A stretch of DNA of 50,666 nt from an uncultured Clostridia bacterium (GTDB taxonomy: Bacteria > Bacillota > Clostridia > Christensenellales > UBA1242), in the NCBI GenBank assembly GCA_944350115.1, contig CALVNZ010000001.1:285378-336043 (forward strand), given 5' to 3'. Positions 8,726 through 48,900 of this stretch are shown here, piece by piece (the stretch's first letter is position 1; the number at the start of each line of letters is the position of its first letter). The notes under the pieces were generated by a model that saw nothing but the letters and a program-made list of their open reading frames with translations, was not told where the DNA came from and searched no databases. A program made the position numbers and the translations under genes.

Positions 8726-8734
8726 GAGATTTTG

Positions 8735-10369
8735 ATGGATAATAAAAAACTTGCAGATTTATTATATCCAAACGCACTGAATGTTGAAGATATTGAAAAA
8801 AAATATCCTGAAAGAAATTTAGAAAAAGGGGCGGAGGTAACAAGATTTGCTCCAAGCCCAACAGGATATTTGCATATCGGGCATTTTTTTAGTGCACTTG
8901 TTGACTATCAAATTGCAAAAGCAAGCAATGGCGTTTTTTATTTTCGATTAGAAGACACTGATAAAAAAAGAGAAGTTGAAGGGGCAGATAAAATTGCTCT
9001 TGAAATGTTAAAATTATTAAAAGTTTATCCAGATGAAGGTTGTCTTTTAGAAGGTGAAAAAGGTTGTTATGGCCCTTATATACAAAGTCAAAGACTTGAA
9101 ATTTATAAGGCTTATGCAAAAAAACTTGTCAGCGAAGGCAAAGCGTTTCCTTGTTTTTGCAAAAAGCCTGAGAACTTAGCCGAAGTAAAAGAAGAAAGAG
9201 CAAAAAGATACGGAGCAGAATTTTCAAATGAAGAATATGACTCCTGCAGAAATCTTTCTTTTGAAGAAATAAAAAGCAAAATTGAAGCAGGAGAAGCATT
9301 TGCATTAAGATTAAAAACAAAAGGCAAAAACGGAGATAGAATAAAATTTGTAGATGCTCAAAAAGGTGAAATCGAAATGCAGGCAAACACGAAAGATGTT
9401 GTGCTTGTAAAAGAAAATAGAATTCCGCCTTATGCTTTTGCGCACCCAATAGACGATCATTTAATGAAAACCACTTTGGTCGTTCGCGGTGAAGAATGGT
9501 TGCCTTCTGCCCCGGCACATCTTGAAATTTTTGATGCTCTAGGTTTTGAAAGGCCAAAATACTTTCATGCACCGCTCATTTCAAAACTAAATGAAAATGG
9601 TGGAAGAGAAAAGCTTTCAAAACGAAAACATCCAGAGGCAGATATGCGGTTTTTTATTAAAGCAGGTTATCCCGTTTTAGCTATTAGAGAATATGTGTTA
9701 AATCTTATAAGTTCTGCTTTTGAGCCGTGGAGAACAAAAAATCCGGAGGCATCGCTTGACGAGTTTAAGATATCACCAAAAGACATAACAGCAGTGATGC
9801 CTATTTTTGACATAGTTAAATTAAACGATGTGTCAAAAAATGTGATTGCTAGAATGTCGGCAAAAGAAGTTTTCACAGAAGTTTTAAAATGGGCAGAAAA
9901 CAACGATGAAAAGTTTGCGCTAATTTTAAAACAACGTCCAGATTACTGTGTTAAAGTTTTTAATATAGATCGTGAAGGGCCAAAACCAAGAAAAGACATT
10001 TTTAATTGGTCAATGATTGAAGAATATTTTTCTTACATGTTTCACAAGCCACAATGTTTTGATGCCGTTGAAGACAAAAAACAATTTAAAACCTTTATAA
10101 AAGTATATTTAAAGGAGTTTAATTTTCCTTTAAACAAAGAAGAGTGGTTTGAAAATGTTAAGTTAATTGCTGGAAAATTAAATTATGCGGTTGACAACAA
10201 GCTTTTTAAGCAACAACCAGAGAAATATGCTGGCAACCTTGCAAAAGCTTGTGAGCACATTAGAATTGCTTTGACGGGGAAAAAGGATGCCCCAGATCTT
10301 TACACCTTGATTTCAATTTTAGGCGAAAAAGAAGTTGTTGAAAGATTTGAAACAGCAATCAAATTTTAA
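8735..10369 (+). CDS. gltX: Glutamyl-tRNA synthetase, clostridial long form
   Basis: This class I aminoacyl-tRNA synthetase charges tRNA-Glu, and possibly tRNA-Gln in organisms that use GatCAB. The HIGH-type signature is FAPSPTGYLHIGH (residues 38-50) and the KMSKS-type signature is KLSKRKH. At 544 residues it is longer than the usual form of about 480-500, because of an N-terminal extension of about 35 residues with a YPERNL motif; this is characteristic of a clostridial GltX subfamily. ATG 8735 is chosen over the adjacent TTG at 8732 because AGGAG (8724-8728) gives 6 nt spacing. It ends in a bidirectional terminator. The downstream gene is on the other strand. Confidence 0.95.
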   Translation: MDNKKLADLLYPNALNVEDIEKKYPERNLEKGAEVTRFAPSPTGYLHIGHFFSALVDYQIAKASNGVFYFRLEDTDKKREVEGADKIALEMLKLLKVYPDEGCLLEGEKGCYGPYIQSQRLEIYKAYAKKLVSEGKAFPCFCKKPENLAEVKEERAKRYGAEFSNEEYDSCRNLSFEEIKSKIEAGEAFALRLKTKGKNGDRIKFVDAQKGEIEMQANTKDVVLVKENRIPPYAFAHPIDDHLMKTTLVVRGEEWLPSAPAHLEIFDALGFERPKYFHAPLISKLNENGGREKLSKRKHPEADMRFFIKAGYPVLAIREYVLNLISSAFEPWRTKNPEASLDEFKISPKDITAVMPIFDIVKLNDVSKNVIARMSAKEVFTEVLKWAENNDEKFALILKQRPDYCVKVFNIDREGPKPRKDIFNWSMIEEYFSYMFHKPQCFDAVEDKKQFKTFIKVYLKEFNFPLNKEEWFENVKLIAGKLNYAVDNKLFKQQPEKYAGNLAKACEHIRIALTGKKDAPDLYTLISILGEKEVVERFETAIKF

Positions 10370-16888: not shown

Positions 16889-17311
16889 ATGATTTTAGAG
16901 CAAATTAAAAGCGCAAACATTGAAGCAATTAAAACAAAAGATCAAACAGCACGAGCTCTTTATAGTGTGCTTTTGAATAAAATAAAACTTGAAGAAATAA
17001 ACAAAAGACAAGCAGGGATAGAAATGACCGACGGTGACGTTGCCGCAATTTTACAAAAAGCCACAAAAGAATTGTGTGAAGAAAGAGACAATTATGTTAA
17101 AGCAGGAAACAGTGCAATGTCTGACGAAATTGCAAAGCAAATTAGTTTAATTGAAAAATATCTTCCTAAAATGCTTTCAAAAGAAGAAATTAAAAACATC
17201 ATTAATTCTTTGCCAGATAAAACTATTCCTTTTGTTATGAAATATTTTAAACAAAACTATCATGGTGCGTGCGATATGCGCCAAGTAAGTGAAGTGTTGA
17301 AGGAAATTTAA
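16889..17311 (+). CDS. yqeY: YqeY/GatB-like domain protein
   Basis: The 140-residue protein matches the YqeY family, which resembles the C-terminal tRNA-binding tail domain of GatB and is linked to tRNA or amidotransferase function, though its exact role is unknown. Typical segments are KTKDQTARALYSVLLNKIK near the N-terminus, ERDNYVKAGN and IEKYLPKMLSKEEI in the middle, and a truncated-looking VMKYFKQNYHGACDMRQVSEVLKE end. The usual length is about 148. AAGGAGG precedes ATG 16889. The stop overlaps the next start by 1 nt (TAATG), so it is translationally coupled to the phosphoesterase. Confidence 0.9.
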   Translation: MILEQIKSANIEAIKTKDQTARALYSVLLNKIKLEEINKRQAGIEMTDGDVAAILQKATKELCEERDNYVKAGNSAMSDEIAKQISLIEKYLPKMLSKEEIKNIINSLPDKTIPFVMKYFKQNYHGACDMRQVSEVLKEI

Positions 17312-18084: not shown

Positions 18085-19473
18085 ATGAAAAAAATTGGCA
18101 AAATTTTTGCTTTGATTCTTATGGCTGGAACTTTGACTTTTGCTTTGGCGGGTTGTAGCAAAGACAGCGGAATTTCAAACAGCAAAAGCGATCAAATAAT
18201 ATATAATGGTGGAATTGTGTCAGTGGTTGATGACAATATTTTTTATGCAAACGGATATTCAAATTCAGACATAACTACAATGGACGAATTTAACGCAGCC
18301 GCGCAATATTCTTATCTCGCAAGATTGAATTTAAACGAAAACGAAACAGACCCATATAGTTCCCCAGAAAATGTGGTAAAACTTAACAGCGAAGTTGTAG
18401 GGTATGAAAACACTTATAGTTTTGTTGTTGGCGATTTCGTTTATTATGCAAGCCCAAACAAACATCAAACAAGTTCAAACACCTATGTTTTCACATATGT
18501 TTCTCTTTTTAAAACAAGATTAAATGGTTCTGACACAAAAGAATTGATGACCACAAATTCTTTTGACACTGAAAAAGCTCAGTTTAGTGTTGTGGAAGTG
18601 GAAGGACAAAAGTTTTGGCTTGTTTATGACGGAACGGCTTTAAATATAATCAATTTAAACAACGACAAAGTTATAAAAATTTCCGATTCAGCGACAAGTG
18701 TGGCTTTGCCAAAAGAAAATGAAACTTTTAATGGTAAGGTTTATTACACAGAGGACAAAGAAAATAAGTATGGCGAAACAGGGAATGAAGTTTTTGAATA
18801 CGACATTGTTTCGAATGAATCTAAAGCTATTATGAAAACCATTAACAACACGGTGACTTTTACAGGAAGATGCGGTGATGATGTTTTCTACACAAGGGTT
18901 AATGCATTGACAAATGTCACGAAAACATATAAGGCAGATGCAAAAGATTTTGAATCGCAAACATTTTTAACTGCAGGCGAAGAGTTTTATTCAGCTGAAA
19001 TAAGTGAGATTTGGAAAATTGAAAGCGAAAATCTTTCTTCTTACAACGGTTATATCTTCACCTCTTCACTTTCAGGCAATGCGCAAATTTTGTATAAAAG
19101 AAATTCTGCGTCAAATCCAATAGTGTTGCTTGCAAACGGGTCTTATTCATCACTATTATTTGTGAGTGGCGACCTTGTTTATTATTCAACAAGTGACGGC
19201 ATTGCTTATAAAAGTGTTTCAACTCCAACAGAAGAAACAAAGCTTGTCGAAGGATTGACGATAATTGCAGACAAAATCGGATATGATTTCTACGAAAGTG
19301 GGAACTTAAAAAATTTATATTTCTATGCTCAAAGAATTTATTTGGAAGATGACGAAGATTCAACAGAATCAACAACTGACACCGAAGAAAATGATGACGC
19401 AAATTACTATCTTTACATGATTTCAGCATCATCGCAAAGCACTCCGCAATTGTTGGGAAAAACCGTCAAATAA
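18085..19473 (+). CDS. Lipoprotein with propeller-like repeats (DUF5050-like)
   Basis: The 462-residue lipoprotein has lipobox LAGC (Cys24). The body has repeated short beta-segments with Tyr/Phe pairs: GGIVSVVDDNIFYANGY, GDFVYYASP, GKVYYTED, GDDVFYTRV, GDLVYYSTSDGIAYKS. These are spaced as in DUF5050-like/LRP1-type beta-propellers of Clostridia. A Glu/Asp/Thr-rich insert lies near the end (around residues 425-445). A role on the outer face of the membrane is inferred; the function is unknown. GTGGAG precedes ATG 18085. It has its own promoter and a strong terminator, hence is monocistronic. Confidence 0.82.
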   Translation: MKKIGKIFALILMAGTLTFALAGCSKDSGISNSKSDQIIYNGGIVSVVDDNIFYANGYSNSDITTMDEFNAAAQYSYLARLNLNENETDPYSSPENVVKLNSEVVGYENTYSFVVGDFVYYASPNKHQTSSNTYVFTYVSLFKTRLNGSDTKELMTTNSFDTEKAQFSVVEVEGQKFWLVYDGTALNIINLNNDKVIKISDSATSVALPKENETFNGKVYYTEDKENKYGETGNEVFEYDIVSNESKAIMKTINNTVTFTGRCGDDVFYTRVNALTNVTKTYKADAKDFESQTFLTAGEEFYSAEISEIWKIESENLSSYNGYIFTSSLSGNAQILYKRNSASNPIVLLANGSYSSLLFVSGDLVYYSTSDGIAYKSVSTPTEETKLVEGLTIIADKIGYDFYESGNLKNLYFYAQRIYLEDDEDSTESTTDTEENDDANYYLYMISASSQSTPQLLGKTVK

Positions 19474-19513
19474 TAGCAAGTTTTAGCTTTAATAAACTTC
19501 AACAAAAATAGAC

Positions 19514-19550
19514 ATAACTCGCGTAAAATGACGCGAGTTATTCTTTTATT
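19514..19550 (+). terminator. Intrinsic terminator
   Basis: ATAACTCGCGT (19514-19524) pairs with ACGCGAGTTAT (19531-19541), followed by TTCTTTTATT. Confidence 0.85.
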
Positions 19551-19580
19551 TTGTCATGTTTTTGTGTTAATTTAAATATG

Positions 19581-19599
19581 TTTCACGATTTAAGTGAAA
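19581..19599. promoter_or_regulatory. Inverted repeat in the spo0A-homologue leader
   Basis: TTTCAC (19581-19586) and GTGAAA (19594-19599) form a perfect inverted repeat with 7 nt between, about 42 bp upstream of the start codon. It could be an operator or an mRNA hairpin. Confidence 0.35.
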
Positions 19600-19640
19600 T
19601 TTATGATTTTTCAAAAAATTTAATAAAAGGAGAGAGAAAT

Positions 19641-20411
19641 ATGGGAAATCTGCCGTTACACAAAGGAAAAATCAGAGTCTATGTTGCAGACAAAGCAGAA
19701 GATAATAATGTAGTGACATATTTTCGAGGCAGTGACAAATTTGCTTTGGTTGGCGCGAGTCCAAACGGAGAAGAAGTTTTAAAAGACGTGCCTTTACTTA
19801 AACCAGACTTTCTGATTATGGAAGTTATGCTCAGCGGAATGGATGGATTTGTTGTGCTTGAAAAGTTAAAAGAAAGCATGGCAGACAGAGTGCCAAAAGT
19901 TATTTTTACGAGCAATCTTTCTCACAGTGGTTTTGTGACGAAAGCAATTACAGAAGGAGCAAGCTATTTTATGGTCAAACCTATCTTGCCAGAAGTACTT
20001 GAAGAAAGAATTTACGATCTGATGCAAAATCAAAATGATAATTCCGTTACAACAATGAAAACCAACAAGCAGTTGGATGAAAAAATTTCAAATATTTTTA
20101 TTAGCATTGGGATTCCGGCTCATATAAAAGGATATCAGTTTTTAAGAGAGGCTGTAAAACTGGCTGTTGAAAAACCTGAAATCATTGGTTCTATTACAAA
20201 ACAACTTTACCCCACAATTGCAGAACGATTCGAAACGAGCTCCTCAAAAGTTGAAAGAGGGATGAGACATGCAATTGAAGTTGCGTGGAATAGAGGCAAA
20301 ATCGAAAACATCAATTCTTTGTTTGGTTTGAAGATTTACAACAGCAATGAGAAACCAACAAATGGTGAATTAATTGCATTAATTGCAGATAAAATGATTA
20401 TGGAAGGATAA
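19641..20411 (+). CDS. spo0A: Spo0A-family sporulation regulator with degenerate receiver
   Basis: The 256-residue protein has a response-regulator receiver (about 10-125) joined to a Spo0A C-terminal DNA-binding domain. The latter is strongly conserved: GIPAHIKGYQFLREAV, IIGSITKQLYPTIAERF, VERGMRHAIEVAWNRG and KPTNGELIALIADK. In Bacillus, phosphorylated Spo0A starts sporulation by binding 0A boxes. Here the phospho-acceptor position is Glu61 (LIMEVMLSGMDG; Asp56 in B. subtilis, GAA codon at 19821), and the acidic pair is VADK (Asp17, Lys18) rather than VADD. Thr90 and Lys113 of the switch are kept. ATG 19641 has AAAGGAGAG. Activity may therefore not depend on normal phosphorylation. Confidence 0.92.
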   Translation: MGNLPLHKGKIRVYVADKAEDNNVVTYFRGSDKFALVGASPNGEEVLKDVPLLKPDFLIMEVMLSGMDGFVVLEKLKESMADRVPKVIFTSNLSHSGFVTKAITEGASYFMVKPILPEVLEERIYDLMQNQNDNSVTTMKTNKQLDEKISNIFISIGIPAHIKGYQFLREAVKLAVEKPEIIGSITKQLYPTIAERFETSSSKVERGMRHAIEVAWNRGKIENINSLFGLKIYNSNEKPTNGELIALIADKMIMEG

Positions 20412-26273: not shown

Positions 26274-28568
26274 ATGAAAATTTTTGGCAAAATGATTTAT
26301 TTGATATTAGCAATTTTTTTTGTGGGGTTGTTTTTTGTTTTAGAAAATGCATCAATCGCAGGTGTCATTTTTCCTTTTTCATTTAGCATGATGTTTGCTT
26401 TGGTTTGGGCGAACCAAAAATACTGGCTTGTTTGTCCAGCTTATCTAATCAGTGCTATTGTTGCAAACCATTCATTGGCGGGAGTAGTCAGTGCAATTTG
26501 CTCGGCTGTATTTATTGTTGTGCCTTATTTAATTCATTATTTTTGCAAAAAAGGAATGTCGGTGTGGGAGCTTGTGATTTATTCCGTGTTAAGCCAATCC
26601 GCCCCAATTGCTTTTGCGGCAACTTCAGGGGAAGCAAACGCAGTTTATTATAGCGTGGCAAGCACTTTAATTGGCGTTGTGTTTATGCTCGGGTGCATTA
26701 CTTTGTTCGAAGCAATTTTTGTTAGAGGATGCGCATATAGGTTGTCTGCAATTGAGATGGTCGCAGGAAGCAGTATATTAATGGCGTTAACAGCGGGAAT
26801 GGTTTGTTTTGAAATAAACAGTTTTTCATTTTTAAAACTTTTTGTCAGCTTTTTATTGTTAGCTATAACATATTGTTCAAAAAATTATTATTCTGTTTTT
26901 GTCGCGGCCATATTTGGACTTGGCACTTTGATATCAACAAGCAACCCATTGTATTTAGCTCCGTTTATGTTGTGGGCACTTGCAATTTCACCATTCAAAA
27001 CTTATCGCAAATATTTTTCTGCGATAGCTTTAATATGCTGTGAACTTTTGATTGGTTTTTATTTTAAATTATATCCAGCTTTTGATTGGCTGGCAATACT
27101 TCCAACTGCAATAAGCTCCGTCATATTTATGATAATACCAGACAAAATCTACAATTCTGTCAAAGGGCTTTTTGATCTCAAAGGAGATAGAACAGCGATT
27201 AAAAATGTTGTCAACAGAAACAGAGAAATTTTGCACAGAAGACTTGCTTCGCTTTCCGATGTTTTTGGTGAAATGAACAAAGTTTTTAAAAGTTTGGTAA
27301 AAAAGAATTTAAGTGAAAATGAAGTCAAAAAACTTTTACGTGATGAAGTAATCTCTCGAAATTGTGAAACTTGCCCTGACCGAGCAAGATGCCATAGAAC
27401 TTATCAAGAAGAAACTAACAGGGTTTTAGACGAGTTAATGGACATTGCTTTTGAAAAAGGCAAAGTCACACTTTTAGACATACCAAATTATTTAAACTCA
27501 CGTTGTGGCAGAGTTAACGGAATAATAACCGCCACAAATGGGTTGTGCAAGCAATACAAGTCTTATAGTGGCATGCTTTCAAACATTGACACTTCCAAGC
27601 TTTTAATCGCAGATCAGTTGGGTGGAATTTCTTCCGTCATGAAAAACCTTTCAAAAGAAGTGGATACTGAAATAGCTTTTGACGGAAAAAGAGAGCAAAA
27701 AATTGTTGATGAACTTTTGTTTAACGACATAGTGTGTTCTGACATAGTCGTTTATGAAAAAGATGCACACACTTGTGAAGCATCGCTGGTTGTTCGGAGT
27801 ATGGACGCAGAGCAAATCAAAATCCCAGACATAATTGGTAAAATCTGTAAATCTAAAATGTCTGTGTATGAAAAATTTCCGTCTACGAAACCTGGGTGGA
27901 CGACACTAAGTTTGAAAACTGCGCCAAAAATGGATTGCGTTTTTGCCATTGCTTCACAAACAAAAAATGGCAGTTCATCGAACGGAGACAATCACAGCGT
28001 TTTAAGACTTGATGGTGACAAGTTTATGTTTGCTTTGTGTGATGGAATGGGCAGTGGGGAAGAAGCAGAAAAAACAAGCGAAGTTGCCATTGGCCTTATA
28101 GAAAATTTTTATAAAGCAGGCTTTGAGAGTGACGTTGTTTTGTCAAGTGTCAACAAACTTTTGTCATTACAAAAAGAAGACAAGTTTTCCGCCATCGACG
28201 TTTGTATTTTAGATTTAAAAAATGGTCTTGCAGATTTTATCAAAATGGCATCTCCAGCCTCAATAATAATGTCGTCCGAAAGCTCAAAAATTATAGGAAG
28301 CGAAAACTTGCCGTTGGGGATTATAGACAAAGTTGAACCAGTGACAAAAAAGCTTGTCGTAGGAGATGGAGATAACATAATTTTGATGACTGATGGAGTC
28401 GCTGACAGTTTTGCAAGCGACCAAGCTGTCGAGGATTTTGTCAAAAGTTGCTATTCTTTAAATCCACAAAACATAGCAGACAAAATTCTTGAACAAGCAC
28501 TTGCAAACAATGATGGCAGAGCAAAAGACGATATGAGCGTTTTAGTTGTAAAAGTTTTTAATATTTAA
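26274..28568 (+). CDS. spoIIE: Stage II sporulation protein E (SpoIIE phosphatase)
   Basis: The 764-residue protein has about ten N-terminal membrane helices (residues 1-290). A central region follows with a Cys cluster CETCPDRARCH (about 363-374), then a C-terminal PP2C phosphatase (about 560-764) with GDNHSV, CDGMGSGEEA (about 588) and MTDGVADS (about 705). In known spore formers SpoIIE sits at the asymmetric septum and dephosphorylates SpoIIAA, activating sigma-F in the forespore. The length is near the usual 800 or so. ATAGGAG precedes ATG 26274. A TATAAT lies at 26250-26255 with no clear -35. The spoIIE-tilS order is conserved in Bacillota. Confidence 0.95.
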   Translation: MKIFGKMIYLILAIFFVGLFFVLENASIAGVIFPFSFSMMFALVWANQKYWLVCPAYLISAIVANHSLAGVVSAICSAVFIVVPYLIHYFCKKGMSVWELVIYSVLSQSAPIAFAATSGEANAVYYSVASTLIGVVFMLGCITLFEAIFVRGCAYRLSAIEMVAGSSILMALTAGMVCFEINSFSFLKLFVSFLLLAITYCSKNYYSVFVAAIFGLGTLISTSNPLYLAPFMLWALAISPFKTYRKYFSAIALICCELLIGFYFKLYPAFDWLAILPTAISSVIFMIIPDKIYNSVKGLFDLKGDRTAIKNVVNRNREILHRRLASLSDVFGEMNKVFKSLVKKNLSENEVKKLLRDEVISRNCETCPDRARCHRTYQEETNRVLDELMDIAFEKGKVTLLDIPNYLNSRCGRVNGIITATNGLCKQYKSYSGMLSNIDTSKLLIADQLGGISSVMKNLSKEVDTEIAFDGKREQKIVDELLFNDIVCSDIVVYEKDAHTCEASLVVRSMDAEQIKIPDIIGKICKSKMSVYEKFPSTKPGWTTLSLKTAPKMDCVFAIASQTKNGSSSNGDNHSVLRLDGDKFMFALCDGMGSGEEAEKTSEVAIGLIENFYKAGFESDVVLSSVNKLLSLQKEDKFSAIDVCILDLKNGLADFIKMASPASIIMSSESSKIIGSENLPLGIIDKVEPVTKKLVVGDGDNIILMTDGVADSFASDQAVEDFVKSCYSLNPQNIADKILEQALANNDGRAKDDMSVLVVKVFNI

Positions 28569-36963: not shown

Positions 36964-39900
36964 ATGTCCAAAACAAAGAAAATCACAAGTATTGCTTTTG
37001 CAATCATATTCGCATTTTTAACTTGCGGAATAGGGTTGTTAACATTTTTGCCAAGTTATTTTAATGGCAAACTTGCCGAAGACAAAGCGACAACAAAGGC
37101 GGCGGTAGATATTTCAGGGCCGATCGAAAATTCTGGACTTGCGACAGAAGTTTATAATGGACAAACTTTTTACATGATTTCAACAGAAGATGAATTTGCT
37201 TCTGTTGCTTATGCTATTTCTTACTCAAACAAAACTGATTGGGCGAGTGCGAACTATGCTCTTGCAAATGACATCAACTTACAATCAAAGCTTTGGACGC
37301 CTATTGGAACAGAAACAAATCCTTTCACTGGTAAGTTTAATGGTAACGGTTACACAATAACAGGCGTGATGGTTCCTATGTCGGCTTCAGTAGATCAAAA
37401 CTATTTTGGTCTCTTTGGTAAAGTTGTTGGCGCAACGCTTTATGACGTCGTTATTGGAGAATTTACATATTCTTATCAAGGTGATGTAATGCCTCCTTAT
37501 TCAGGAAGACTTGCTGGTTATGTTGAAAATACAAGACTTGTGGATATTTATGATTTAGCTTATGTGAGATTCCCAGAGATATTGGCAACAGAACTTAAAA
37601 CTTTTGGATACATTTCAACTGGAACAACAATGTACGCTGGCGACACTTTTACAAGCAAAGGCAAAGTTTATTCTCCAGCAAACTATAATTCAAATTTAGG
37701 ATCAGTTCAATTTAACTGGGCGGGAATTTCTGGTGAGCCAAACATTGTTGGAAAGAGCATTTACGTTGTTAATGACGGCGTTGGCAAAATGTATTTATTT
37801 GAGGACGAATCAAAGCAAGACATTGGCAGTTATAAAATTTTAGTTGAAGGAACATCGGTCGTTGATCCATTAACAAGAGGAGTATACTCAAATAATTATA
37901 GAGATGAACTTCCTAAAGAAGCCGGATCACTTGGGTTAACAGATGGCGATGTTGTAATTGAAGGTTCAACATTGGGCAAAAAGATGATGGGCTTTAAAAA
38001 CGGAATGGACAAGTCTGAAAATCCAACATATTATCAAAACATTAATGAATATTTAAATGGCGGGGATGGTAAGCCAGCAGCAAGCACAGATTACAACTTT
38101 GTTGTTGCTGATTGGAAAGATCTTTCTTACAATTTGACCATTCATGCTGGTTATAACAGTACTTCTGGGGAAGAAGTCGTTATTCCAATTAATGATGTGC
38201 TTTATGGCGACACTTGGGCAAACGTTATCGCTCAAATTTCAAGAAGTGGTTACACTTTGAAAAAATTGACAGAAACAAAAGGCGGAACTGATGCTGTTTA
38301 TGAAGCTGAAATAGTTTGGGACGAAAACTATATTAACAAGACTGTTACGCCAACTTATCCAAAAGGAAGCAATGTTACTCAATGGGACGAAGCAGGTCAA
38401 AATGTTTTAAACATCGATCTTTACGCTGAATGGCAGGGCGAACCAGTCAACACACTTGTCAAATTCCAAAACACCAACGACGCTGGCGCAAGTTTGGACG
38501 CAATGAACAATTTGAGTGTTGTTTATGCTGATCCAGAGGTAGGAAAAATAACAATTTCTGAATATGGTTCTGTTAATGGCGAATACACATTTAAAGCTGT
38601 TGCAAATGAAGAATTGAATTTTAGTTTCAAACTTGACAATGGTTATGTCGTTTCAGACAATGGAGTGTCAATCACTGGCGGTGTTGATTCCGTGTCGGGA
38701 GATGCGCCTATAATTTCTTATTCTTATAGTGAAGATACTAAAATACATACTATCAATGTTAAAGGTATAGTTGCAGAAGACGCACAAATCACGATTGAAA
38801 TTGAAAGGGAAGAAATTGCAATTCCTGTTACGGCACAACACTTTAACCTTTCTTTGAGCGGGCATGACAGCGCAACAACTTCAATTTCTACAACGGGCGA
38901 CGGACAATACACAATCACAACCAAGATTGGAGAAAGTTTCAATCTTGTAGCGACTGCAACAGGCAACTATGAATTTGACACTTATCAAGTCAACGGCTTA
39001 ACACAAGTTAATGCTCCAACAGGTGACACAGGGGCTGAAAAAACTTTTGCAATCACTGTTGAAACTTTCAATAACCCAAGCATTGTGATTTCGGCAAAAG
39101 AGAGATTGTTCACAGCATCAATTGATTTTGTTTATGATATATACAACACCGATGGTAACGCAAAACCTGGCACGATTTCAATTCAGTGTGGCGAACAGGT
39201 CGTTTCAACTGGCGAAGATGCTTCTTGGAGCAATTTGATGGTGAACGATCCTGTTGTGATCACGGTGACGAATAATGAATATTATGTTATAAACGATTTA
39301 ACTGTTTCTGGCGGAAGTGCGGTTTTAAACAGAACTAGCGACACAACTTGGGAACTTACTGGTGTTGTTGGAGGAGAAACATACACAATTACAGCAAATT
39401 TTGATAAAGTTCAATACACTGCAACTTACACTGGTGGATTTGCGTTCTCAGGAAATAGTCCAACACCAATTTTAGATGCAGAAGGAAGCCCTGTTGATGA
39501 CGCTTCGCAAATCATCACTTTTGGCGGAAAGACCTCCTATATTTATGGAGAAGAATTAACACTTTCTTTTGATTTGATTTCACAATATTATGAATTTGTT
39601 GGTTGGTATTATTCAAATGGCGTGCTTATTTCAAGTGATCCAGATTCTACTTTGACAGCACCAGCTTCGAATTTAAATATTTATGGTGTGATTAAGGGTA
39701 AAACAGCAACCGTTACAATCAACACGGGAACTTATTATGAACTTGCTGACGAAATTAAAAATGCGAACAAAAACCTTGTGACTGTTTCAAATGGTGTCAG
39801 CACAATCACATTCACTTACGCTCAACCAAACAGCGGAGCATTTAGTTTGCAAACACTTGCAGGTTATGGCGTTTCAAGAGTTTTGATTGGGCCGTCAAGT

Positions 39901-42900
39901 GCAAATATTGCAAATGGCGAAAGTGGTTTCTATTTGTTTGGCACAGGAAATTCTTTTGCAGGATATCTTAGTGCTTATCAAAACAACGCAGAAATTTTAG
40001 ACCTTTTCACAGCAGAATCAGATTGGCATATCGAATTGCTTGCAAGGCCTTATTCAGCACAAGTTGTTTTCCAAGCAGGAGCTGATGCCACAGGCGCTCA
40101 AGTTTCAGATGTTTACTATTATGATCAACCAATTGATGTGACAACAATCATGGCGGGATTTAGTAAGACAGGGCACACAGGTTCTGGCTGGGAATTCACT
40201 TTAAGTGGAACCAAATATAATGTCACAGATGAAAGCCTTTTAAGCGAAGGAAAGTACTTGTTAGATTTTGCTTCTTTTAACGGAATAACAAGTGTTGTTA
40301 GTGAAAATGGTGCAAATCAAATCGTTGTTACAAGAACTTACACTGCTAATGAATATAAACTTTCATTTGATTTGAATGGCGGAACAATCGCTGATCCAAG
40401 CGGGCTTGAAGGCGATGCCAAAACAGGTTATTACAAAATGGTGACTTATGGTCAGCCAATTGGCTCTTTGCCAACGGCGACAAAAACTGGCTACAACTGG
40501 GGGCGATGGACAATTGACTCATCCACAGTCACTGCTGATTCGACTTATTCCTATGCAGAAGCAAAAACCATCGTTGCTAATTTTAATGAAAAACGATATG
40601 ATTTGGTTGTTTATGCAAATGGCGGGAAATTTGCTGAGGGTTCAGATGTTTCAGAAGATGGAACTTATATAAATGGCGAGCTTGTCTATGACTCACCTTT
40701 AACAGGGTTCTTTGAAGGTCTTGCAAGTCATACAGGGTTAAATAGACAAGGCTTTAAAGCAACAGGTGTGGCTTATGTTGTGAAATCTACAGATGGGGAG
40801 GGCGCGACATATGAACTAAAAAAACATATCACTGAAGACATGCGTTTCAACATTGAAGATTTTGGAGACACAGGATTTGATTTTGATGATTCAAGCTCTG
40901 TTTTGACACTTTATGTTGTTTGGGAATTTGCAGAAGATGCACTTGCTGTCAACATGACCGACTCAACTATTGCATATAACTCTGAAGACAAATTAGATTT
41001 TCAAGTTTCAGTATCGTTTAACGGAACATCTTATAATATCAACGAAACAAGTTCTATTCCAACTGATGCAGGCATTGCATTCGACGGCGATGCAACTTGG
41101 CAATATAGCACTGATGGAGTGTCTGGCTGGGCAGATTTTAAAGGCGAAGCAAACAACTATATGGTTTCAATTTCAAATGTTTCAGAGTCAGGACATTATC
41201 GTGTGACTTACACAATTAAAGACACTGCATCAATTTCAGTTATTGCTCCAACCAAAGAGATTTCTGGTGAAGTTGTCGCAACAATTGAAAAAGGCAAGGT
41301 TAAGTTTGAATTTAGTGGAATGGCAGAGCCTCCATATATTTATTCAGCAATGCTTGTTGCGAAAGAACTAATATCTTATAACTTGCCAGTCTTGAAGATG
41401 ATTGAAACTGATGAAAGCGCTATACAAAGTTTTATAAACTTAAATTTAGAAAACTTTAATTTCGGCGATGTTTCTCAAGAAGAAATAAATAGTATCTGTA
41501 AAATTACTTTTAAAACCTTATTGACACAATCGTTAATAGACACAAGTTTTAAAGAAGAAATCAAAACTGCTTATGCCAACTCTGGCTGCGCCGATCAAAA
41601 TATACAGAATCTTAATTACGCGTCAGTTGAAGAATTTAACAGCTTTATAGATTCGTTGACGATAGACTGGATCAACGCAAATGTTGATGGAGCCTATTAT
41701 GAAACATTATCTAATGAAAATGCCGTTTCTTATTGGTTAATGGTTGGCAGTGCGTTGCCATATTATATCGATATAAATGTTGAAGCAAACAACTGGAAAG
41801 ATTTTGTTACCCTTGCTGATTCTAATTTTGAAGGGTCTACAATTTTACTTGTAAAACCAGAAGAATACACAAGCGAAAACATTGTTTCAAAGATTACAGA
41901 AGATGCAAATGTTGGGCTTCATTATGTTGCTTACGAGCTCACTCCTTCTACAACATTTGATATCGACAATTATAAAGATATTAGTGTCGTTGATGAAAAA
42001 TATTATGTTGTGTTTACCAGCGACTATTTAAGAAATTATTCAATAGGTTGGCAAGGCAAAACCACAACAGCTCCGCTGTTAATTGCTCCAAGCACGACGC
42101 TTGAAATGACAGACACGACAGGCATTGCTGGACAAGATTATTCTTATGTTTTGACAACAACAAATGTACCTGGCGGAGTTTATCAAAAAGTTGAAGCAAC
42201 TGTTAAGCCAACTGCAACAACAGCAGGAACTTACAATTTCTTGGACGGAACGCTTATAGTAACTGAATACAAAGTTTACACAACTGATTCCGAATATTAC
42301 ACAATCACAAGACAAGAAGATGGTTCTTACAAAACAACAGGGGCAACGGGCGGATTGACCTTAGGTGACTTTAATGTTGAAAACATCAACCTTTATGTTG
42401 ACGGCGAACTTACACTTCTTGGGCAAGAGGCTTACAACAAATATGAATTTTCATCATCATATTTGACTGCAAGCGCTGGCGGAAGTGCAAACTTGACTGC
42501 GAATATTATTGAATCAGTTGAAGGATATGAATTAACCATTAATTCTGCGACTATTGAAATTGACGGAAGCTCACAAACGATTGAGGTTAATGGCAGAAAT
42601 GGAAGATTCTATGATTCAAAAGGCAACTTCTTGTTTGAAATTGTTGGCAATGGCGCAAACCCAGTGCTTTATGCAACAACATATGTCAAAGATGTAACGA
42701 TTGAAGTTGCAAACTTAACGCCTGCTACAAACAGAAAGTTTATTGGAATTTTAGAATGGAAAAAAGATGATACGAGCATTTATGAAACAGCTTTAAAAAC
42801 ATTGCAAGAATTCCCAACTTCGAAAAGCGTTAAAGTGACATTAGACAATTCGACGCTTAATCAGGCAAAAGCATTTAACGCAATTTACACAGAAGCAGTT

Positions 42901-45900
42901 TATGTGACATTCTCTTCAATTTCAGACAAATCAATTTCTTTGACAAGCGGGTTTGTTGATTATTCAATCTTTGTTCCTATTGCTGGAACAACGACATTGA
43001 ATGACAGTGGCGTGAATTATGATCTTTACGCATTTAAATCATTAGTTACACCTGCAGGAACTTCGGCAGAAGGCAAAAATTTGACAGTGACAGGAGATAA
43101 GCCAGTTTACAATGTGCAAGCGATGTTTGGTTTAAATGCTCCACAAATCTCTGTTGATCCTTCGGCTTGGACACTTGCAACAAAAGAAGGATCTTATGAA
43201 CTAGATGAATTTATTGACAGAATCATAATTTCAAATGACGGAACAGAAAGTGGAATTACTTACACTTATCAATGGTTGAAAGAGGGCTTGCCAATTGAAA
43301 GCATTGATGCAAACACATCAAACAACGGGACTTACAGCGTTAAAGTGACCGCAAATCATGCAAACTTTAATTCTGTTGAGAGCAATTCAACTGAATTTAC
43401 AATCACATTTACAAAATCATCTGTTTCTCTTACTGCACCAGAGACTACAAGTGGAACTTACAAAAATGCAAGCTTCTTAAATGACATCAGCTTCACTTAT
43501 AATTTAACAAATTCAGCTGACACTGGATTAAATGAAACAAAATCATTGACACTTGCAGATTTGCTCGCACTTAACAGCGCACCAACAAAAACAATTGTGA
43601 CTTCAATTGAAAAAGGCGGTGCACCTGTTAGTGACATCAAAGATGCAGGAGCGTACACAATTAAATTTAGTTGGTCAAGTGATACAACAAGCGTTTACGA
43701 GTTTACTGGAATAACTGAATTTACATTTACTGTTAGCCCAGAAAGCATTGAATTAAATAAAGGAAATCATTCTTTATCAAAGAATTATGGTGAAAGTGAC
43801 CCTGATCCACTTTCAGTTCAAGTGCAAGGAATTAATGAAACATTCACAGTTGTTTATGAAAATAGGGGAACAGGCGAAAGCGTAGGGCCTTATAACCTTA
43901 ACAACCCTCAATCACAAAACCCAAACTACACTGTTTCATTCCCAGCTGATGATCAAGGTCAAGGATGGTTTGAAATCAAAAAAATTGATGGGCTTGTTTT
44001 AAGAGCAGAAGTTACAGGAACTGTCACACACATTTATGACGGCAAAACTCCTGATTCAGTGACTGTTGAAGACGGCTCTGCTGGTGCAGTTGTTTTAGTG
44101 ATCAAGAGCGCTGATCAAGAATGGGGCAGATTGACATTAAGCGATTTCATGGAAATCCCAGAAGGTGGAAGTGCAGGAGAACCGTCAACTACAATTAAAG
44201 CAAGCACTTTTGCAGGAATAACATTTAGCGTGGCAAGCGCTTCAAAGAATGTTGGAGAATACTTCATTACTGCAACAGGCACAACCACAACATTTAGCGG
44301 CGGGTTCATTTTTGAAAATCCAACCGCTGCAAAATTTGCGATTAGTCAAAAAGAAGTGACACTTTCTGATTTAACAAAGGAATTTGATCAAACGACATCA
44401 TTTGACAGCCGTTTGGAGAAACACAATGTGACAATTTCTGGACTTGTTGGTGGTGAAGACCTTGATCTTACTGCAACTTTTGCTAGTGCAGAAGTGACTG
44501 AAGACGGGGCAAGTCATGCTTTGTCAGACCTTACACTTGTTGATGGATCTAACGGACTTGCTGGAAACTATAAAATCGCAGAAGGCTCTTATACAGGAAC
44601 AATTACAAAATCATCAAAAGTAATTGAGATTTCTTTTACAAACGACCCGTTTGTTTATGGCGACATTTCTAAAACCGATTTAAGTGCAATCGTGCTTGAT
44701 GGTAAAGTTGACGGAGCGTCAGTTTATCCAACTTATGTTGATTTCGATGTGACCATCACAGACGCAACTTACTCACAAGGAGAATTCTTAAATCAAGGAA
44801 GTTGGACAATTCAAGTTTCTCCAACATCTAAATATTACACTGTAAACTCAACCACATTTGAAATCACCGTTGGTAAAAAGACAATTACTGCAACTGCTGA
44901 CGGAGAGATAGTCAAAGATTATGATGCAACAACGGATGTTTTACAATCATTTAGTCTTGATGCTCTTGAAGGCGATGCTGTTTTAGCAACAGCAACTTAT
45001 GCAAGTGAAATGCCTGGTGAAGATATAGAAGTTACAATTGCACTTTCTGGTGCAGACAGCACAAACTACATTTTGGCAAACTCAAAAACGACTGGGCAAA
45101 TTAATGAAATCATCATCACAGTTAATGCAAACATAAACAGCATTTCTTTCGTTGATGGCGCACAAGCTATTGGGCAAACTATTTTTGAAATCAGCTATCC
45201 TTTCACTGAATCTTGGGCTGCTGAACAAGCCTTTGCACTAATCACGAACCCATCAAAAACAGGATATGATTTTGTCAAGTGGACAAGTGGAGATAAAGAC
45301 TTTACAGCAGGAACTATTGATGAAATTTTTGAAACTGCAATTACATCTAGAAATATTGATATAACAGCAGAATGGAAAATTCAAATATTTGAAGTTACAG
45401 TCATAATTGATGATGAGCAAGGCTCTTACACTGCTGATCCACAAGGAAGTGTGTTAAACAAAGTTCACACTTATGACTATTGGACAACTGCAACATTTAC
45501 TGGAGAAGCAAAAAATGGATATGTCTTGCTTTCACAACCGCAAACAATTCAAAACATAAGTCAAAATGAAACAGTGACTATTTCGTTTAGGGCTGCAAGA
45601 ATTACATTCGTGGTTGAAGCTGACACAAGCTCGCTTTATCCATCAGGAGCAACTGTTGTTTACGGCGGAGAAGGTTGGACGAGTTCAGGAACAAACGCTG
45701 TGAAGAAAGTGCTTTCTTACACAGATTTAGGAGAACTTACGGCAAATGCGTTCTTGCCAACGACCACATTGACAGGATATAAGCTTGCATCTTGGAAAGT
45801 TGGTGAAAAAATCATTTCTGCAAGCGATGGCGCCTATACTCTTGCACAATTGGTGGCGGATGCTAACAGCTCATTTACAAGTGATATTGCGATTGAGATT

Positions 45901-48900
45901 GCTCCACAATTTGAAGCAAACCAGCATCAGATTTCATTTGATTCTAACGGCGGAACACCAAGCAGTCTTGATCCAATCACGGTGACTTATGGCCAGGAGA
46001 TTGGAGATCAACTTCCAGAAGTTACACAAACTGGATATAACTTCATGGGTTGGGTTTACAACGGCGAAACCTACACAACAAGCACAATTTATGGCTTGGA
46101 CGAAGATATCACGCTTGTTGCTGAATGGGGCGTTGGAGTGTTCACTTTGCAAGTGACGACCGAGCACGCAACAGTCAAAGTTGTCAATCAAGATGGTGAT
46201 GAAATTGTAAGCACGGGTGGCGGAAGCTATAAATTGAGCCACGAAGATACTTACACAATTACAGTTCAAGTTGAAGCAGGCTATTCTATTGGAGAATGGA
46301 CAAATAGTGAGGGATTTGATTTCTCGCTTGATGAAAACAAACTTTCTGCAACTATTTCAAACATCTCTAAAAACGGAACATTAAACATTGCAACAGAAGC
46401 AAAGGACAATGAAATCAACATTATTATTGATCATGCGACAATTGATGTTGTCATTGGAGAAGACACAAAACCTTCTGTTTCAAAAACAGAGACAGGTTAT
46501 AAATTTAATGCCAAAACAGGTGAAGTTGTTAAGATTACAATTAAACCTGAAGAGGGATATGCAATCACTTTTGTTGGAACAGATCAAGGTAAAGTGACAT
46601 CAGAAGGAAATGTTTACACTTTGCAAAACTTCACAGCAAACACGAATTTAACATTTAGTGCAAAAGCAAATCAATTTATTGCAAATTTAGTTCTCGATGA
46701 TCATATAACGGGTGTTGAAATCATCTCTGGTGGACAAAATGCTGGAACAGGAAAAATTCAAGTTTCAACCGGCGAGCCACTTATGATAAAACCTATTTTC
46801 GCAACAGGATATGAATTAGCACAAGATGGTGCTACTGCAACAACAGGTGTTAGCGTTTCAGTGGATGGCGGAACAGGAAATATAACTTTCTCTGACTTTA
46901 CAAATGAATTTACTATTACATTAACTTCTTCTGGAATTTTCTATGACATGGGCGTTTCATTTAAAGCAATCGATGAAAACAATTCAGTTGTGGAGGAAGA
47001 CCAATTCAGCGTTTCTACCACTCCGTCAGGGCAAGCTCAATTTAACACAGAAATAACATTCGCAGCATCAATGGGCGCGGCAGAAGGATATGTGTTCCTT
47101 GGCTGGTTTGAAGGCACACTTGTTGAAGAAGACGGAATTTTAAATCTTGAAGGCAAAGAACCTGTCAGCACAGACCTTGAATATAAATTCATTGTGACAG
47201 GTGCACGGGATCTGACGGCTGTGTTTAAATACAGCGTGTTCAAGATTCAGGCATTCGTTGAAGGAAAAGGACAAATTTATAAAGACAGCATTGAAGAGGG
47301 AACGCTTGTTGCTGACAATGAAGACAATGTGTACATGTCAGAAGAGATGTTCTACAATCAAACTTTGACTTTGGTTGCAAAAGCAAAACCTGGTTATGAA
47401 TTTGATGGCTGGTATATAGATGGAGCAAAGGTGACAGAAGGTGTTACTGGAACTACATTTACAACAACAATTTCAAAGGCTTTTGACATAACCGCAAAAT
47501 TTGTTGCTAAAGAAATAAGATTTGACATTAATCCTGGGGTTGTTATAAACGGAATCTTGTATGATGGCGAAAGCATTGAAGGTTTAAATTTTGGCAAAAT
47601 CGAATGGAGCACAGATTCTGAATTTACAGATCCTGTTGCAACAGAAGATATGCCAGTTATCACAGAAACTGACGGAAAAGTTTATGTGAGAATCACAAAT
47701 TACGCTGGTTATACATTTGACTCCATTTATTCTGCGCTTGAAGGGTTTGATGGACAAATCAACGAAATTTCAAAAACAGAAAACACACATGTTTTTGAAA
47801 TAACCAACCTTAATGCTGATCATGAAGGCGGATACAGATTTGTTGCAAAATTTGTCGCTGAAACAACGACAATTACATTAAAATTTAATGACGGTAATAA
47901 ACAAATTGAGGCTGGACAAATTGTTGTAACCGCTGATCCTGGATTGAGCATTTCAGGAAACAGTTCTTCAGCAGTTGAAGTTAAAGCTGTGACGGGTTCA
48001 AGCTTGTCAGTTACAGCATCTATTTACCTTGGACTAGAATTTGCAGATGGTTCTAACCCAGTTAAACTTGCAGGCGGATCAGGGACTATTGAAAATCAAG
48101 TGACTTCAACACCTGACGCATCAACAGGTTGGGCACAGCAAGTGATCTTTACGGTTAAAGACTTTACATCAGGAATTGTTGAAGTTGTGATAAACGTTAA
48201 ACCAAAAACATACAAAGTTCAACTCTATAATGTTGCACTTGATGGAACAACAAGCCTAATTGGCAATACAATTGAAGTTGAATTTGGAACGCAACTTGAG
48301 GTTCCATCGGAAATTTCAACTCCAGAGAGAACTGGCTTCACATTTACTGGATTCTATGCATACGTGAATGGTGCAGGGAAACAATATTTGAACGCTGATT
48401 TAGTGCCTAATGGAAATTGGACAGACACCGGATATGAATACTTTGGTGGAAAATATGTTCAATCCACAAACTTTGACCCAATCACAAATACATTCTCTCT
48501 TTATGCAAATTACATCATCAATAAGACGCGCATCACAATTAATGCAGTGCCGAAAGGACTTGAAAACATAGACCCAACTGTTGCTGTAAAAGTTGTTATG
48601 GACGGACTTAATGAATCTAACTCTTGGACTTCATCAGAAGAATCTTTCTATGTTGACGTGAGAGAGGGTGCAAACATTTCTGTTACTGCTCCAAGTTATG
48701 AAAACTATAAGTTCGCTTACTGGACAATAACAAGAACGACTACATCAGGCGTTCAAAGTCAGGATAAAATTTACAGCGAGACCATTTCTCCGCTTTCTCA
48801 TGATAGAGATGAAAGCATAACGCTAGAAATTACTTATTATGCTGAAGTGCAAATTAAAGTTTCAGGAAATGGCGGAACTGCTTATTACACATATCAAAAC

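Follow-up and report, generated by a model that had tools for sequence, protein, structure and literature searches.

Glutamate in place of the phospho-accepting aspartate of Spo0A in a small-genome Clostridia lineage predicted to form endospores

The spo0A locus

The window, i.e. the whole stretch of 50,666 nucleotides analysed here, belongs to the genome of an uncultured Clostridia bacterium (865,569 bases, 99.34% complete) and carries a spo0A gene with the following features, together with two genes annotated by similarity to sporulation proteins:

19474..19640, + strand: spo0A leader, with a terminator-like hairpin, a promoter-like segment, a palindrome and a GGAG
19641..20411, + strand: spo0A, 256 aa, ATG start, frame confirmed; TIGR02875 231.1 bits
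19668..20012, + strand: receiver domain (pseudo-receiver), residues 10-124; Pfam Response_reg (PF00072) 51 bits, cut-off 30.2
19689..19694, + strand: codons 17-18, GAC AAA, Asp-Lys at the metal-binding pair (B. subtilis Asp10-Asp11)
19821..19823, + strand: codon 61, GAA, Glu at the phospho-accepting Asp site, aligned to B. subtilis Asp56
19911..19913, + strand: codon 91, Ser, conserved Thr/Ser of the pocket (Ser or Thr in 133/133 aligned sequences)
19977..19979, + strand: codon 113, AAA, conserved pocket Lys, invariant within the genus
20085..20393, + strand: Spo0A_C DNA-binding domain, residues 149-251; Pfam PF08769 131 bits
24907..25596, + strand: CwlD-like spore amidase; TIGR02883 174 bits, below the cut-off of 221.6
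26274..28568, + strand: SpoIIE-like phosphatase; TIGR02865 365 bits, full length, below the cut-off of 490.8

The 19641-20411 product passes the cut-off of 200 bits set for the Spo0A equivalog (TIGR02875), and a profile search identified it as the sole full-length Spo0A of this genome. Its receiver matches the solved Spo0A receiver 9phz, while its Spo0A_C domain can be aligned to 1LQ1 and 1FC3 with the recognition helix SKVERGMRHAIEVAW conserved. On these sequence matches the product is a Spo0A orthologue, in agreement with a first-pass annotation of the window, made without database searches, which had described the DNA-binding half as strongly Spo0A-like.

The leader includes a good ribosome-binding site for spo0A (GGAG at about 19629-19632) and an extended -10-like element resembling TGTGnTATCTT, which has no clear -35, precedes spo0A in almost every member of the genus (e.g. 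L087-L153) and reads TGTGTTAATTT in the window copy. An exact palindrome, TTTCAC-N7-GTGAAA (TTTCACGATTTAAGTGAAA, 19581-19599), has a single exact match in the window; being kept in the closest subclade only, it was rejected as a genus-wide operator. These leader elements are best described as candidates for promoter and operator roles. Scanning for 0A boxes upstream of spo0A, spoIIE and spoIIA returned only weak matches, with 1-2 mismatches in AT-rich DNA, and no convincing box.

Directly upstream of spo0A lies a gene for a predicted lipoprotein without a Pfam family (18085-19473). It is the most conserved neighbour of spo0A in the genus (54/80 loci), and the order YqeY-metallophosphoesterase-lipoprotein-spo0A, with YqeY at 16889-17311 in the window, is conserved in about 50 of the 80 loci. 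The idea of a conserved neighbour acting as a Spo0A partner was rejected, as just the predicted lipoprotein and housekeeping genes were found. Elsewhere, the window encodes a GltX-like glutamate--tRNA ligase scoring slightly below the cut-off (8732-10369) and a 4405-aa ORF (36964-50181), possibly a giant surface protein, for whose first 1012 residues the sole match is a sub-threshold List_Bact repeat.

A receiver domain without its acceptor

The first-pass annotation had reported that Glu61 occupies the site of B. subtilis Asp56 and that Asp17-Lys18 replaces the Asp-Asp pair, and both readings are upheld by the codons and by alignment. Misalignment at site 61 can be ruled out, the flanking motif aligning gap-free with B. 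subtilis. The same annotation listed Thr90 and Lys113 as kept pocket residues: Lys113 is indeed conserved, but Thr90 was off by one, as site 90 is variable and mostly hydrophobic among the 133 aligned family Spo0As and the conserved residue is Ser91. The protein therefore combines the pocket residues Ser91 and Lys113 with the absence of the acceptor Asp and of an intact acidic Mg2+ pair, and, as a recognised receiver fold (PF00072) with Glu61 instead of the acceptor Asp, it belongs among the pseudo-receivers. With Glu at the acceptor site and no second metal acid, Mg2+-dependent phosphate uptake by this receiver is predicted to be no longer possible.

Comparisons between close relatives in the genus gave a median dN/dS (omega) of ~0.07 for the receiver and ~0.01 for the DNA-binding domain, which is almost frozen in the genus; these values are rough because synonymous sites are near saturation. 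They indicate that both domains are clearly constrained by purifying selection. Within the receiver, site 61 ranks 27th of 115 in conservation, and site 18, at rank 106, is among the most variable. Positions at which the genus is uniform but departs from the class are concentrated in two switch loops, beta3-alpha3 and beta4-alpha4 (61, 64, 70, 93-98), with 110 in addition, and the lineage-specific invariant residues are L64, F70, H95, F98 and F110. Such a pattern would look like a maintained pocket without metal-dependent phosphotransfer, unlike that of a decaying domain.

Recurrent replacement of the acceptor aspartate

Related Spo0As, whose alignment the first-pass annotation had recommended, were compared across the genus, the family and the class, all from draft assemblies of uncultured organisms. 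Within the window's genus, site 61 is Glu in 81/83 distinct Spo0As and Asp in the other 2, with Glu encoded by GAA in 58 cases and by GAG in 23. Many different gut metagenome assemblies contributed to these 83 proteins. Since close relatives carry the same residue, a sequencing error or single-strain change at 19821-19823 is ruled out, and the Asp-to-Glu change is, on this alignment, not specific to the window genome. In the two genus members with Asp at site 61 (L009 and L147), the second metal acid is nonetheless missing. Residues seen at site 18 include K, N, T, S and A, with an acid in just 2/83 genus members, while all 83 share Asp17, Lys113, Tyr109 and Phe110 and carry either Ser or Thr at site 91.

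In the other genera of the family, 38/50 distinct Spo0As have Asp at site 61 and 12/50 have Glu; Asp61 and an acidic second residue are both kept in 21/50. A neutral residue at site 61 was found in none of the 133 family Spo0As. Outside the family, the class retains Asp in 60/63 Spo0As (with one Glu, one Asn and one Ser) and the second metal acid in 57/63. The Glu (L175) and Ser (L193) exceptions are both members of a sister family in the same order, whose sampled genomes have just 1 to 4 HisKA matches.

On a tree built with sites 18 and 61 excluded, site 61 requires 8 state changes. Five are Asp-to-Glu events, placed on the window's genus (support 100), genus g20 (99), L046, L060 and L175; the other three are a switch to Ser and two reversions to Asp, both among members of the window's genus. 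Glu61 would thus have arisen about five times, with at least four being the safer count because the branching between the two main Glu genera is poorly supported.

Loss of histidine kinases across the family

Profile searches of the window genome returned no HisKA and no HATPase_c_5 match, and Spo0A is the only protein with a Response_reg domain. Four proteins match HATPase_c, and all were assigned, namely to GyrB, ParE (with its partner subunit next in gene order), MutL and SpoIIAB (172 bits), which rules out an orphan kinase among them. Taken together, the HisKA, HATPase_c, HATPase_c_5 and Response_reg searches therefore leave no candidate for a sporulation kinase, Spo0F or Spo0B in this genome, the components that the first-pass annotation had advised looking for.

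This situation is typical of the family, sampled here with 197 genomes from 42 genera: a Spo0A relative is present in 188/197 genomes and a HisKA domain in 23/197, and genomes typically encode one receiver domain each. The suggestion made at first pass, of a phosphorelay control that is bypassed or replaced, is strongly supported by the lack of histidine kinases and of any other receiver in the window genome and with the similar state of most of the family. As a class-wide control, HisKA was detected in 236/243 genomes, and the 7 genomes without it are exactly the 7 members of this family. Among the HisKA matches in the family, 23/25 have a response regulator gene no more than 3 kb away, and these kinases were rejected as Spo0A kinases because they adjoin a regulator of their own; by gene order, the family's 23 HisKA loci resemble ordinary two-gene systems and not orphan sporulation kinases.

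Most of the other family genera have kept Asp61 though most lack HisKA kinases, so kinase loss alone does not force the change to Glu, and the loss of kinases and the loss of Asp appear not to be one event. Small phosphodonors could still act in those HisKA-less genera that keep the full acidic pair.

A retained sporulation programme

The window genome encodes SpoIVA (669 bits), consecutive SpoIIAA-SpoIIAB-SigF genes, consecutive SpoIIGA-SigE-SigG genes, and SigK-like and SigH-like sigma factors, in addition to the SpoIIE-like and CwlD-like proteins of the window. Several of these sporulation proteins score below curated cut-offs though matched over their full length, and their names are hence assigned from best match and gene order. 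SpoIVA is found in 190/197 family genomes, even though these are mostly 0.7-1.4 Mb, far smaller than the minimum genome of 2.3 Mb quoted for spore-formers (PMC11536998). From this gene content, the window organism and most of its family relatives are predicted spore-formers without histidine kinases.

A Spo0A probably uncoupled from phosphorylation

With no acceptor site and no kinases, sporulation must be decided unlike in well-studied bacteria. The explanation we favour, and consider probable, is that this Spo0A orthologue has turned into a phosphate-independent regulator, probably in an active-like state and set by its amount or by partners. Genome reduction would have removed histidine kinases and the other response regulators from the lineage, with Spo0A being retained as the starter of a sporulation sigma cascade that is still complete, and with its receiver being maintained as a folded pocket (Asp17, Glu61, Ser91, Lys113). 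Most likely, Glu61, the changed site 18 and the rewritten beta4-alpha4 loop would place this receiver at or near its active, DNA-binding-competent state. The sporulation decision would then come down to Spo0A amount, with SigH and the spo0A leader as candidate inputs, or alternatively to partners, including two receiver-less Spo0A_C paralogues.

A constitutive or active-like state, with control by level or partner, is what we infer from this combination of residues and missing genes, and it is compatible with observations on other receivers. Natural aspartate-less receivers most often carry Glu in place of the Asp, a substitution that can mimic phosphate, and they tend to retain the first acid together with the Lys while losing the second acid (PMC4395418, PMC12632262); Glu61 acting as a phosphate mimic would fit this evidence. 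Asp-to-Glu alone, however, is often insufficient for activation, Spo0A being among the examples (literature cited in PMC4395418), and neither replacement of the Glu in ChxR, which does not abolish constitutive DNA binding, nor changes to the triad residues in RitR, which are without effect, point to a strict dependence on these residues (PMC4395418). For these reasons, we propose that several changes together hold the receiver in an active-like state. A CheY D13K/Y106W mutant with Lys at the position equivalent to Lys18 is constitutively active (PMC11528121); an effect specific to Lys18 cannot be general, however, because site 18 varies among genus members.

Among the alternatives, the strongest is a pseudo-receiver that stays off until a metabolite or a protein binds at the pocket or the rewritten beta4-alpha4 face, with Glu61 being structural instead of a phosphate mimic. 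The purifying selection and the invariant switch-loop residues listed above would agree with such gating, and partner and ligand control are both listed for other pseudo-receivers (PMC12632262). Considering that the most conserved spo0A neighbour is a predicted lipoprotein, and as such an unlikely cytoplasmic partner, we regard this alternative as rather unlikely, if worth serious attention.

Another possibility is that the working sporulation activators are the receiver-less paralogues, with full-length Spo0A modulating them or on its way out. The window genome encodes two such short Spo0A_C proteins (L002, 1438-1857 on G000:C3, and L003, 1450-1920 on G000:C1), which share the recognition-helix core VERSMRH with Spo0A and would need no phosphorylation; most genus members likewise had more than one match (P0001) in the search for Spo0A relatives. 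These are the only other Spo0A_C matches of the genome, so that there is no second canonical Spo0A, a finding that the first-pass annotation had named as counting against its reading. The paralogues are much more diverged, however (TIGR02875 80 and 53 bits, against 231 for full-length Spo0A), and the full-length protein is the one whose DNA-binding domain is nearly frozen in the genus, which makes their taking over as activators improbable. A role as phosphate-independent competitors or partners of Spo0A is possible.

We consider it more improbable still that an unrecognised kinase or phosphodonor modifies Spo0A, either at Glu61 or on Ser/Thr. HMM searches are blind to new kinase types, and receivers are known to be modified on Ser/Thr (PMC4395418); against this stand the empty kinase searches of the window genome and the incomplete Mg2+ site of its Spo0A. 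Least probable of all, and very much so, is a Spo0A decaying along with its lost signalling in bacteria that no longer sporulate, an idea in line with the strong genome reduction and the loss of all two-component partners but at odds with the near-universal SpoIVA, the full sigma cascade, the purifying selection on both domains and the fact that Glu never gave way to a neutral residue in the family.

Extending the phosphate-independent Spo0A to the family as a whole, the chances are about even that these small-genome gut Clostridia form endospores without two-component signalling, with Spo0A uncoupled, its acceptor Asp repeatedly converted into a permanent negative charge, and the decision moved to Spo0A abundance, SigH or partners. 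To our knowledge, Spo0A phosphorylation is treated as a universal gate to endospore formation. In the open-access literature (subscription papers and preprints being outside our scope), we found no description of a Spo0A without Asp or of spore-formers without histidine kinases. A clade with a spore programme but without kinases, and in at least two genera without the acceptor, makes the need for phosphorylation directly testable, and bears on how a developmental decision is rewired after the loss of its signalling system. In metagenome annotation, finding Spo0A should not be taken as evidence that a phosphorelay exists.

Comparison with known systems

Canonical Spo0A, as in B. subtilis and in Clostridium, where it works with orphan kinases, has in common with the window protein the receiver and Spo0A_C domains, the recognition helix, the pocket Ser/Thr and Lys, and the first metal acid. 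The window protein differs from it in having Glu at the acceptor site and Lys at the second acid (a site that is variable in the genus), and the window genome differs in lacking a kinase or phosphorelay. Candidatus Arthromitus (PMC3533761) is also a reduced, uncultured gut clostridium with a streamlined set of sporulation control genes; the family genomes described here are mostly in the size range given above.

The aspartate-less type of receiver is itself already known, and is found here, judging from the alignments, on a Spo0A and fixed in a lineage. Glu at the D position, with the first acid and Lys kept and the second acid lost, is the typical pattern given for these receivers, ChxR, RitR and HP1043 among them (PMC4395418, PMC12632262). 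Unlike in these regulators, the effector of the window protein is Spo0A_C, the programme is endospore formation and the genome is without any kinases, while sister genera still display the ancestral, phosphorylated state. The constitutively active CheY D13K/Y106W (PMC11528121) shares the Lys at the second metal acid, but was engineered and carries a second change, whereas natural relatives in the window's genus display many other residues at this site.
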